DNA of 64,000 bases from Patiriisocius marinistellae (GTDB lineage: Bacteria > Bacteroidota > Bacteroidia > Flavobacteriales > Flavobacteriaceae): contig NZ_BKCF01000001.1 in NCBI RefSeq assembly GCF_009014635.1, positions 558,001 through 622,000 on the forward strand, in the 5' to 3' direction. How positions within the stretch are numbered: position 1 is the stretch's first letter; every line of letters begins with the position of its first letter. Shown in pieces: positions 9,219-11,474 of this stretch. Position numbers and translations under genes: made by a program. The notes under the pieces were generated by a model. The model was given only the letters and a program-made list of their open reading frames with translations, was not told the DNA's origin and did no database searches.

Positions 9219-10427
9219 CTATTCTACTAATTCATAAAAATCTCTTTTGCCAATTTTTATTTTAATGCCAGAATGTAATTTAATGTTACTATTGATGTCC
9301 TTATTTTTTTTCAAATTAATTTGAATGGCTCCACTTTCAATTAGCCTTCTAATTGCAGATTTAGATAATTCACTTTTTAATTGAACACATAAATCTATTA
9401 ACTTAATAGTTTTATTTACATGTTGGATAGTCTTTATTAGCACAGGCATGAATTCTTTATCTTCAAATTTTTTGTTTTGAAATTGTTTTACAAAATGCTC
9501 TTCTGCTTCTTGAGCTTTAGTAGCGTTATGGTATTGTGTAATAATGTTTTTAGCAATTATTTTTTTTATTTCCATTGGGTTTTCACCATTTGCTAATCTG
9601 TTATTTATGTTTTGTTTTTCGTTTAAAGAAAAATCTGTTGTTAGGTGTAAAAACTCTTCAATTAAATGATCTGGAATAGACATTGTTTTTCCAAACATAT
9701 CTTTAGCTTCATCTGTTAATCCAATGATATTGTTTAGTGATTTACTCATTTTTTCTTTTCCGTCAAGTCCTTTTAATAACGGCATACACATGACAATTTG
9801 GGGATTCATTTTAAAAGTTTCTTGTAATTTTCTACCCATAGTACAATTGAAAAGCTGGTCTGTTCCTCCCATTTCAATATCTGCTTTAATTTCTACAGAG
9901 TCAAAACCTTGAAGAATTGGGTACACTAATTCATGCATTGCAATTGGTGTGTTTTCTGTAAATCGTTTATTAAAATCGTTTCTGTGCATAAGTTGTGCAA
10001 CAGTGACATTAGATAAAATTTGAATGACTTCTGTAAAAGAAAGTTTGTCTAACCATGTAGAGTTAAATACTATTTTAACTTTATCAACGTCTATAATTTT
10101 AGATAATTGATTAATATAAGTTTCTGAATTGTGCTTTACAGCATCAACAGATAATGGTTTTCTACTTTTGTTTTTTCCTGTTGGGTCACCAATTCGTGCT
10201 GTAAAATCTCCAACTAAAATAATAACTTGATGTCCTAAATCTTGAAATTCCCTTAATTTTTTTAATACCACTGCATGTCCTAAATGTAAATCTGGAGCTG
10301 TTGGATCGAAACCTAGTTTTATAATTAGTTTTCGATTGTTTTTTTTAGCTTGTTTTAATTTGTCTTCCAATCCATTTTCTGGAAGAATAATTTCTACATT
10401 TTCTTTTAATTTCTTTATTGTTTCCAT
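9219..10427 (-). CDS. tyrS: tyrosyl-tRNA synthetase
   Basis: A 402-residue class I aminoacyl-tRNA synthetase that charges tRNA-Tyr. The HIGH-type motif HLGH is at residues 48-51 within LGFDPTAPDLHLGH, a form typical of the TyrZ branch, and KMSKS is at 226-230. An S4 RNA-binding domain occupies the last 70 residues (LSKSAIRRLIESGAI). The ATG at 10425-10427 follows only 14 bases after the T-run of an intrinsic terminator, and a Tyr-rich leader peptide lies before that, so expression is likely controlled by attenuation in response to tyrosine supply. Confidence 0.97.
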   Translation of the reverse strand: METIKKLKENVEIILPENGLEDKLKQAKKNNRKLIIKLGFDPTAPDLHLGHAVVLKKLREFQDLGHQVIILVGDFTARIGDPTGKNKSRKPLSVDAVKHNSETYINQLSKIIDVDKVKIVFNSTWLDKLSFTEVIQILSNVTVAQLMHRNDFNKRFTENTPIAMHELVYPILQGFDSVEIKADIEMGGTDQLFNCTMGRKLQETFKMNPQIVMCMPLLKGLDGKEKMSKSLNNIIGLTDEAKDMFGKTMSIPDHLIEEFLHLTTDFSLNEKQNINNRLANGENPMEIKKIIAKNIITQYHNATKAQEAEEHFVKQFQNKKFEDKEFMPVLIKTIQHVNKTIKLIDLCVQLKSELSKSAIRRLIESGAIQINLKKNKDINSNIKLHSGIKIKIGKRDFYELVE

Positions 10428-10442
10428 AATTTTTTAAATAAA

Positions 10443-10473
10443 AAAAAGCCCGAGCAAAATGCTCGGGCTTTTT
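10443..10473 (-). terminator. intrinsic terminator in the tyrS leader (attenuator)
   Basis: On the minus strand a GC-rich 9-bp stem (GCCCGAGCA / TGCTCGGGC) flanked by five A-T pairs closes a 3-base loop and is followed by at least seven T. It lies between the promoter and the tyrS start, with no other gene end nearby, so it must act on transcripts heading into tyrS. The 5' arm can also pair with TGCTCG inside the leader peptide codons (10531-10536), a possible antiterminator. Confidence 0.88.
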
Positions 10474-10496
10474 AGTTATGTTATAATTTATAATTA

Positions 10497-10601
10497 TCAA
10501 ATATTATTTGAAGTATACGCATAGCTATTTCGAGCAGATATTATTTTATAATAATAAGTGCTGAAATATGGAAGGCGTAATATATTGTTTAGTCTTTTCA
10601 T
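10497..10601 (-). CDS. tyrS leader peptide (34 residues, Tyr-rich)
   Basis: A short reading frame starts at ATG 10599-10601, about ten bases after a consensus promoter box, and stops at TGA 10497-10499. It encodes 34 residues beginning MKRLNNILRLP, with six tyrosines (positions 12, 16, 17, 18, 27, 29): PYFSTYYYKI and SYAYTSN. The Tyr triplet lies 75 bases before the terminator stem. This is the layout of trpL- or pheM-type leaders: ribosomes stalling on Tyr codons when charged tRNA-Tyr is low would prevent terminator formation and let RNA polymerase read into tyrS. The frame and its codons are seen; the mechanism is inferred. The transcript probably has almost no 5' untranslated region. Confidence 0.8.
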   Translation of the reverse strand: MKRLNNILRLPYFSTYYYKIISARNSYAYTSNNI

Positions 10602-10610
10602 TTTATACTG

Positions 10611-10640
10611 CAAATATAATTTTTAATGTTCTAAATACAA
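10611..10640 (-). promoter_or_regulatory. consensus Bacteroidota promoter of the tyrS leader
   Basis: On the minus strand TTG (10638-10640), 19 bases, then TATATTTG (10611-10618) match the Bacteroidota housekeeping sigma consensus TTG-N19-TAnnTTTG exactly. Transcription should begin a few bases before the leader-peptide ATG. Confidence 0.85.
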
Positions 10641-10841
10641 TCTTTTATTTGACATGATTTTTTATAACGGCAACTTACAAATATGCTTAAACTTTTGATT
10701 AAGCGACAACTTCCATATTGAGTATATGTTTCTTCAGTTTGATTTATATTAAAATACTTAGATTTAATGATTAATCAGAAAGAACAAAAGAGAGAATTAA
10801 GACTGTTCTTTATCTCAGCTCTTTGTTGTGCGTTCGTGCTT
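10641..10841. other. intergenic region with weak repeat-like ends
   Basis: No gene is seen between the tyrS promoter and the cyclase remnant. It holds a small hairpin (GCTTAA / TTAAGC near 10685-10704) and, next to the cyclase end, a segment CTTTGTTGTGCGTTCGTGC that resembles the ends of the structured repeats at 11524 and 13734. The resemblance is weak. Confidence 0.3.
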
Positions 10842-11474
10842 TTATATTTCTACTCTTGCAAACGCTCTAACTGGCGAACCATCTGATTTTTCGATTTTTA
10901 GAGGAATACAATTTAATTCAAACTTTTTAGAAATTAACTTATCCAAATTAGTCATATTTTCAATTATTAAAATTTCCTTTTTTAGAAGAACTTTATGATT
11001 AGGAAGTAATTCGGCAGTCATTTTATCTACAGATATAGAATCAAAACCTAGTGCCTTTAAATTCAATTTTGCTAACCATTCAACAGCCTCAGTTGTTAAA
11101 GTTGGAAATTCGTCAAAGTATCTTTCCGTATTCCATTTGTGTTGCCATCCTGAATAGAAAAGCACAAAATCTACATTTTTAATCTCATCCTCTTTCATTT
11201 TAAGAAAGTCTAAACTGATTTCTTTTATTTCAGAACAATCAATTACTATTGCCGGTCCAATAAATTTTTCCACACCAAATTGGTCAAGTGATTATGTGTT
11301 TGGAATTATATGTGCAGGTGCATCAATATGTGTTCCAGTATGCGTACACATTGTCATATTGATTTCTGCAAACCCATCTTTTTCTATTGTATTGCCTTGT
11401 TCAAAAATAGGTTCAAGTGTATTTGGGTAAACAGTAATTTTATTTTTTAGTGTATGTGTTAAATCTATTATCAT
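10842..11474 (-). pseudogene. cyclase family (kynurenine formamidase-like) gene with one in-frame stop
   Basis: The minus-strand frame from ATG 11474 reads as a cyclase/formamidase family protein (COG1878): MIIDLTHTLKNKITVYP and the metal-binding signature HTGTHIDAPAH, then a TAA at 11292-11294 directly after HIIPNT. Without any frame change the sequence continues SLDQFGVEKFIGPAIVIDC to a stop at 10842, so the total is 211 codons with one nonsense codon. The downstream part could only restart at a GTG (11271-11273). A single AAA-to-TAA change would explain it; a sequencing error is also possible. The gene lies in the accessory stretch of 10.6-14.6 kb. Confidence 0.85.

Follow-up and report, generated by a model that had tools for sequence, protein, structure and literature searches.

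A classical ribosome-mediated attenuator needs to preserve no more than its control codons, and the counting of codons requires no conservation of the encoded peptide. The pheM–pheST system of Escherichia coli shares with the locus described here a leader peptide that contains cognate codons, together with alternative stems and a terminator ahead of an aminoacyl-tRNA synthetase (aaRS) operon; unlike this locus, it controls the housekeeping pheST genes and has an ordinary 5′UTR. In Streptomyces coelicolor, failure of the main aaRS induces, by ribosome-mediated attenuation, the gene of an auxiliary tryptophanyl-tRNA synthetase (TrpRS), a logic that the arrangement proposed below would share. The arrest peptides TnaC and ErmCL are constrained at the amino acid level, and known arrest peptides usually fix the residues adjoining the peptidyl-transferase centre. 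The tyrS genes of Firmicutes are under T-box control, and a T-box has reportedly been described for Bacillus subtilis tyrZ.

The nearest design that we found is uORFC-8-2 upstream of cysS in Rhodobacterales, which is likewise a predicted ribosome-mediated attenuator of an aaRS gene and has a 3′ U run consistent with a terminator, as here (PMC8632094). In the accessible part of its description, it is set apart by amino acid, gene and host (Cys, cysS and alphaproteobacteria, versus Tyr and a second tyrS here) and by the tandem cognate codons, which are usually codons 14–15 inside the first stem and are codons 16–17 here; the same part gives no peptide-level conservation beyond the two codons, unlike what is found here (PMC8632094). 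Two auxiliary synthetases are closer in function. Resistance to indolmycin has been shown for S. coelicolor TrpRS1, a Trp enzyme of the Actinobacteria, according to the accessible part of PMC9437257, whereas the link of the present synthetase to an inhibitor is suggested by analogy with it. In the same part of that source, B. subtilis tyrZ appears as a second tyrosyl-tRNA synthetase (TyrRS) under conditional control, as here, exerted by a MarR regulator and a T-box instead of a leader peptide (PMC9437257). For a flavobacterium, clues for leader-peptide attenuation upstream of amino acid biosynthesis operons are mentioned in PMC9723704, whose main text lacks the words tyrS and tRNA synthetase. 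Our searches of the open-access literature, whose scope does not extend to a 2010 comparative survey of attenuators of amino acid and aminoacyl-tRNA operons, gave no match to the core string ILRLPFFSTYY and no account of leader-peptide control of a tRNA synthetase in Bacteroidota; an earlier mention may exist.

The locus lies in a window of 64,000 nucleotides from Patiriisocius marinistellae (contig NZ_BKCF01000001.1). From 10640 to 10427 the minus strand carries, in this order, a Bacteroidota-type promoter, a leader of 34 codons, an intrinsic terminator and the start of a tyrS gene, here called tyrS2 (Table 1). A preliminary description had read this stretch as a ribosome-mediated attenuator, and the computed parts, conservation, covariation and geometry support that reading. 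The leader is very probably a ribosome-mediated transcription attenuator through which the charging state of tRNA-Tyr governs an accessory TyrRS gene. It accompanies this synthetase and would be a tyrosine attenuator of wide distribution among Bacteroidota. We call it, on sequence grounds, a novel form of ribosome-mediated attenuation because its conserved peptide and its near-leaderless start differ from the known ones. Just upstream, a cyclase-like frame (10842–11474 of the window, minus strand) contains one in-frame stop after residue 60 and may be a decayed gene; its HTGTHIDAPAH motif presumably makes it kynurenine-formamidase-like.

Table 1. Elements of the tyrS2 leader locus, in window coordinates.
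Feature	Position	Strand	Basis and remarks
-33 TTG, predicted Bacteroidota-type promoter	10638..10640	-	sequence
-7 element TATATTTG	10611..10618	-	sequence; 19 bases after TTG; its G 9 nt before leader ATG
Leader ORF, 34 codons, MKRLNNILRLPYFSTYYYKIISARNSYAYTSNNI	10497..10601	-	ATG 10601 to TGA 10497; core MK.LN.ILRLP[FY]FS.YY conserved
Hairpin 1:2 (protector)	10516..10579	-	Tyr codons in 5′ arm; AGCA 10562-10559 pairs TGCT 10536-10533, holding segment 2
Tyr codons 16-18	10548..10556	-	control codons 16 and 17 conserved
Segment 2, TGCTCG	10531..10536	-	sequence; pairing with segment 3
Segment 3, CGAGCA	10460..10465	-	loop-proximal in terminator 5′ arm; pairs segment 2 (antiterminator) or segment 4
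Intrinsic terminator (segments 3:4)	10443..10473	-	14 pairs, loop 3; T-run to 10440
Accessory tyrosyl-tRNA synthetase tyrS2, 402 aa	9219..10427	-	TIGR00234 1.3e-104; HLGH and KMSKS motifs visible

A sigma-70 scan called no promoter (shuffles, 4.0). The promoter of the preliminary description was nevertheless borne out, TTG and 19-base spacing included, since its TATATTTG fits the Bacteroidota −7 consensus TAnnTTTG (PMC9723704) and not a sigma-70 element. An exact match to the consensus ends 5–9 nt ahead of the leader's start codon in 92 of the 129 distinct leaders, and 15 nt ahead of it in one more, against a background rate of 1.6% of 40-nt windows; TAnnTTTA occurs within 20 nt in 24 of the 36 leaders that lack the exact form. 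The start codon itself is ATG in 127 of the 129. Given this position and the −12 to −5 register of the −7 element in flavobacteria, taken from the accessible part of PMC9723704, a 5′UTR of 1–5 nt is predicted; at the window's locus, transcription is predicted to start at about 10606, leaving about 5 nt. The leader ORF would therefore begin nearly at the 5′ end of the transcript, on a predicted (nearly) leaderless mRNA, a class put at 5.5% of mRNAs in that source (PMC9723704).

The gene behind the leader is a tyrS, as had been described, yet it is an accessory second copy and not the housekeeping gene. A second TyrRS gene of the same genome (G000:C1:86153-87259) encodes a protein 29% identical to tyrS2, and each of the 14 named leader-bearing genomes tested has two TyrRS genes, one 67–88% and one 26–32% identical to the query. 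Close relatives of tyrS2 occur in 1 of 11 genomes of its own genus, namely the window's own, and in 6 of 397 of its own family, this one included; they occur in 8 of 9 genomes of genus g14, 2 of 3 of g112, 8 of 249 of g146 and 75 of 246 of family f5, to which Empedobacter tilapiae (L073) belongs according to contig coordinates. Such a patchy spread suggests horizontal movement or repeated loss. Carriage by plasmids was considered and dropped: the only PLSDB matches at E up to 1e-100 were five records, all below 60% identity. In a draw across the phylum, 272 of 395 genomes match the tyrS2 TyrRS at E <= 1e-80, and among the matches listed, the window and two genomes at 73% identity excepted, all stand at 48% or less; the housekeeping-type TyrRS of the window's order is 26–33% identical to it. 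Judged by these sequences, the phylum seems to use two TyrRS lineages. One tyrS2 (L034 in genome G327 of g112) is a pseudogene with nine stop codons, behind a leader whose frame, Tyr codons and terminator are intact and which has no exact −7 element.

tyrS2 looks like an inducible backup. As to the insult that it may meet, the Streptomyces TrpRS precedent suggests, by analogy, natural synthetase inhibitors, and B. subtilis TyrZ, in the accessible part of PMC9437257, similarly points to D-tyrosine.

The leader travels with this gene. Loci found through the synthetase protein, merged with those found through a leader pattern, gave 151 loci upstream of an accessory tyrS, with 129 distinct leader regions. 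Of the 94 protein-found loci 93 were read, and 92 of these keep the leader core; the remaining one, G1147, corresponds by contig coordinates to the genome of L073, where the leader is present. Among the 93, the single exception, L155, keeps ATG-Lys, Tyr codons 16–17 and the terminator. The pattern scan of genome contigs, with the Tyr codons excluded from the pattern, returned 77 matches: 57 have the leader form and tyrS2 within 700 nt downstream, two have the leader form at the very end of the fetched stretch (L086, L096), and 18 lack both tyrS2 and a Tyr after FST. The scan added leaders in, for example, Flavobacterium, Chryseobacterium, Empedobacter (E. tilapiae, L073), Arenibacter, Gelidibacter, Aequorivita, Winogradskyella, Tenacibaculum, Bizionia, Runella, Rufibacter and Sphingobacterium. 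The idea of a general cassette placed before other genes was rejected, as the 18 remaining matches have no tyrS2 or Tyr pair, and the sole match on a viral contig is not a leader.

Upstream regions of other tyrS genes served as controls (437–526 bases each). The core is absent from those of 28 housekeeping-type genes and of the 27 distant homologues read from the phylum draw (42–48% identity), where the best scores are 25 and 16, whereas 128 of the 129 distinct leaders score 55–91. These controls also bear on the reading of the locus as a plain intergenic terminator with a chance ORF and no regulation. Short ORFs with a YY pair do arise by chance, upstream of 4 of the 28 and 1 of the 27 genes, and the terminator stem is near-symmetric and is called on both strands; but the same ORF position and control codons recur in 129 distinct leaders, the same segment-2 pairing recurs in 125 and none of the 55 other tyrS upstreams contains the core. 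This reading, to which we give hardly any credence, is already refuted by the comparative sequence data. Likewise, the case that would have counted against attenuation, promoter and terminator kept with the Tyr frame lost, is not found among the 129 distinct leaders.

The Tyr-rich frame of 34 codons noted earlier is confirmed by the sequence, with six Tyr codons at positions 12, 16, 17, 18, 27 and 29. The comparison of relatives that the preliminary description called for singles out two of them. Tyr is found at codon 16 in all 129 distinct leaders and at codon 17 in 128, while codons 27 and 29 are not conserved (43 and 41 leaders; codon 18, 51), and 14 leaders have no Tyr after codon 17.

Downstream of the frame, the terminator scan found two terminators, the same stem once per strand, against a mean of 0.2 in shuffles; the inner 27 bases fold at −19.9 kcal/mol. 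The script finds the stem in 128 of the 129 leaders, and L205 has a stem with an interrupted T-run. The positions given for the elements in the preliminary description, TGCTCG among them, hold on the minus strand (10536–10531 for the latter) except at this point: 12 bases, and not 14, separate the end of the T-run at 10440 from the tyrS2 ATG at 10427. This short distance would suit a translational control, in which the leader acts on tyrS2 by reinitiation or occlusion of the start site and not through termination. We hold that to be highly improbable in view of the nearly universal terminator stem, and also because 66–75 nt separate the leader stop from the tyrS2 ATG in 10 of the first 11 loci (89 nt in the other), which is far for reinitiation. 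A T-box riboswitch, as carried by the same type of gene in Firmicutes, has virtually no chance of being the answer and is refuted by the Rfam covariance models, which gave no T-box match at gathering in the window or at E up to 10 in 10400–10700. The Rfam leader families scored below gathering (Leu 34.7/50, Phe 21.8/55, His 21.1/49 and Trp 20.2/41 bits).

Three mutually exclusive pairings recur among the leaders: hairpin 1:2, which includes the Tyr codons, the antiterminator 2:3 and the terminator 3:4. At the window's locus hairpin 1:2 folds at −19.2 kcal/mol (z −5.95) and the whole leader RNA has a z of −7.88, with none of 200 shuffles equally stable in either case. The pairing tests cover 125 of the 129 leaders; L205 was left out, as were the two Bizionia leaders (L033, L034) and L155, which are without the usual segment 2 and would need a different pairing of 4–5 bp. 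For L034, this alternative 2:3 pairing did not appear in the stalled-state fold. Across the 125, the hairpin 1:2 region lies below its shuffles with a mean z of −1.92, under −1 in 96 and weak in the other 29; in the rows shown it takes two main forms, AGCA:TGCT around the stem with the Tyr codons and, in Chryseobacterium-like leaders, CCCGA:TCGGG.

Segment 2 sits at codons 22–24 and mostly reads TGCTCGG or GTTCGG, and the terminator 5′ arm includes the types CCGAGCA, CCGGGCA, CCGAACA and CCGGACA. In each of the 125 leaders, segments 2 and 3 form 6 or 7 of 7 standard pairs, and a register slid by 1–3 bases lowers the pairing from 92.8% to 12.5–53.8%. The third base of segment 2 and the fifth base of segment 3 are T-A in 65 leaders, C-G in 59 and T-G in one. 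Over the 36 distinct combinations, Watson–Crick pairs average 6.03 versus 5.54 with swapped partners (0 of 5000 swaps reach the observed value), and standard pairs 6.56 versus 6.33 (3 of 5000); this covariation is probably mostly one split between clades, with fewer independent changes than the counts. An outer stem between codons 9–11 and the bases after segment 2 was tried as a further case of covariation and rejected: it forms 6.5 of 7 pairs in 74 GGG-type leaders, a score reached by 211 of 5000 swaps.

A mask test assumed the established ribosome footprint, which reaches about 13 nt past the first base of the A-site codon. With the A site at codon 16, 17 or 18, segment 2 is free and 2:3 forms in all 125 leaders; at codon 20 it forms in 1, and at codons 22 and 27 in none. 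Segment 2 begins 11–17 nt after codon 17 in the 125 leaders, and 12 or 14 nt after it in 105. Under this mask, a ribosome waiting at codons 16–17 covers segment 1 and spares TGCTCG, and these are the working codons of the model. Codons 27 and 29, by lack of conservation and because a stall there would mask segment 2, are not control codons, which bears out the doubt voiced in the preliminary description that a stall at codons 27–29 would cover TGCTCG. Without a ribosome, segment 2 is held upstream in 120 of 125 transcripts ending 20 nt past it; once the transcript extends to the end of segment 3, it is upstream in 74 and bound to segment 3 in 46, which may make basal termination leaky. At equilibrium with the full segment 4, folding favours the terminator over the antiterminator in 122 of 125 leaders even under a stalled ribosome, whereas the antiterminator prevails in 123 when no more than 5 nt of segment 4 has been transcribed. 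The switch must therefore be kinetic.

In the attenuator so predicted from sequence, transcription, translation, stalling and read-through would be coupled as follows. When Tyr-tRNA is plentiful, the leading ribosome would pass Tyr codons 16–17 and cover segment 2, or hairpin 1:2 would form behind it; segment 3 would then be free for segment 4, and transcription would terminate. When Tyr-tRNA is short, with tyrosine limiting or the main TyrRS blocked, the ribosome would wait at codon 16 or 17, masking segment 1 but not segment 2; the latter would pair with segment 3 ahead of the synthesis of segment 4, and the polymerase would read into tyrS2. In the kinetic step, the first bases of segment 4 would compete for bases already held by segment 2. 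Like attenuators of the trpL/pheM type, the leader joins a predicted promoter, with its −7 element 5–9 nt upstream in 92 of 129, and a short ORF under selection at the protein level to cognate codons at a fixed control position and to exclusive 1:2, 2:3 and 3:4 pairings with a terminator, L033, L034, L155 and L205 being exceptions to the last.

The comparison adds what a single sequence could not have shown to the preliminary description, the conservation of the peptide, which breaks the textbook expectation that only control codons matter. In 91 of 92 distinct leaders (L155 was excluded, its core score of 25 equalling the best control upstream), codons 2–17 have a dN/dS of 0.059 (pS 0.71, pN 0.12), a rough value because the sequences averaged pair by pair are related and their synonymous sites nearly saturated. 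The other two frames give 0.99 and 1.72 over the same stretch. Codons 2–8 reach 0.035, though they lie almost entirely outside hairpin 1:2, and the spacer codons 18–21 give 0.47. Since synonymous sites vary freely and amino acids little, selection acts on the amino acids MK-x-L-N-x-I-L-R-L-P-F-F-S-x-Y-Y. Such codon periodicity is not expected from RNA pairing alone, and the conserved peptide is not explained by the plain attenuation mechanism. Because a classical attenuator needs its control codons only, the nascent chain probably matters here; our guess is that ILRLPFFS probably helps the stall or its timing.

This conservation, which the leader shares with arrest peptides, gives some ground for arrest by the nascent chain as the main trigger, with MK-x-L-N-x-ILRLPFFS-x-YY stalling the ribosome via the exit tunnel, in response to a small molecule (free tyrosine, D-tyrosine or an antibiotic), and the Tyr codons setting only the place. 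A ribosome with codon 16 or 17 in its A site would have the conserved residues in its upper tunnel. We nevertheless consider it quite unlikely: residues 14–15, which adjoin the peptidyl-transferase centre, vary (S/N/T and T/E/N/D/A), L155 has lost the core and kept the leader position, TYY and terminator, and a TyrRS as the regulated gene fits charging directly. In contrast to TnaC and ErmCL, the codons that match the downstream enzyme's amino acid rank among the best-conserved elements here.

With its strong conservation, the leader peptide makes it directly testable whether a nascent chain takes part in classical attenuation. Possibly, although we regard it with doubt, the leader is a dual sensor, in which Tyr codons 16–17 report charging while ILRLPFFS in the tunnel gates or lengthens the stall on a (nearly) leaderless mRNA. 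If this were true, the spare TyrRS would be produced in response to one specific insult alone (a TyrRS inhibitor or D-tyrosine, for instance), and the leader would represent a new class, intermediate between attenuators that count codons and arrest peptides. Whether the core can be dispensed with is put to a natural test by L155 (genome G1045), with a wholly different core (MKKIQNISFILSNTTYYCLI...) whose score of 25 is no better than chance. Two further observations concern codon choice. At codon 9, Arg is encoded by CGT or CGC in 86 of the 91 distinct leaders and by CGA in 4, a His codon stands in 1, and AGA or AGG never occurs; the Tyr codon at position 16 is TAT without exception (129 of 129), although synonymous codons vary elsewhere.
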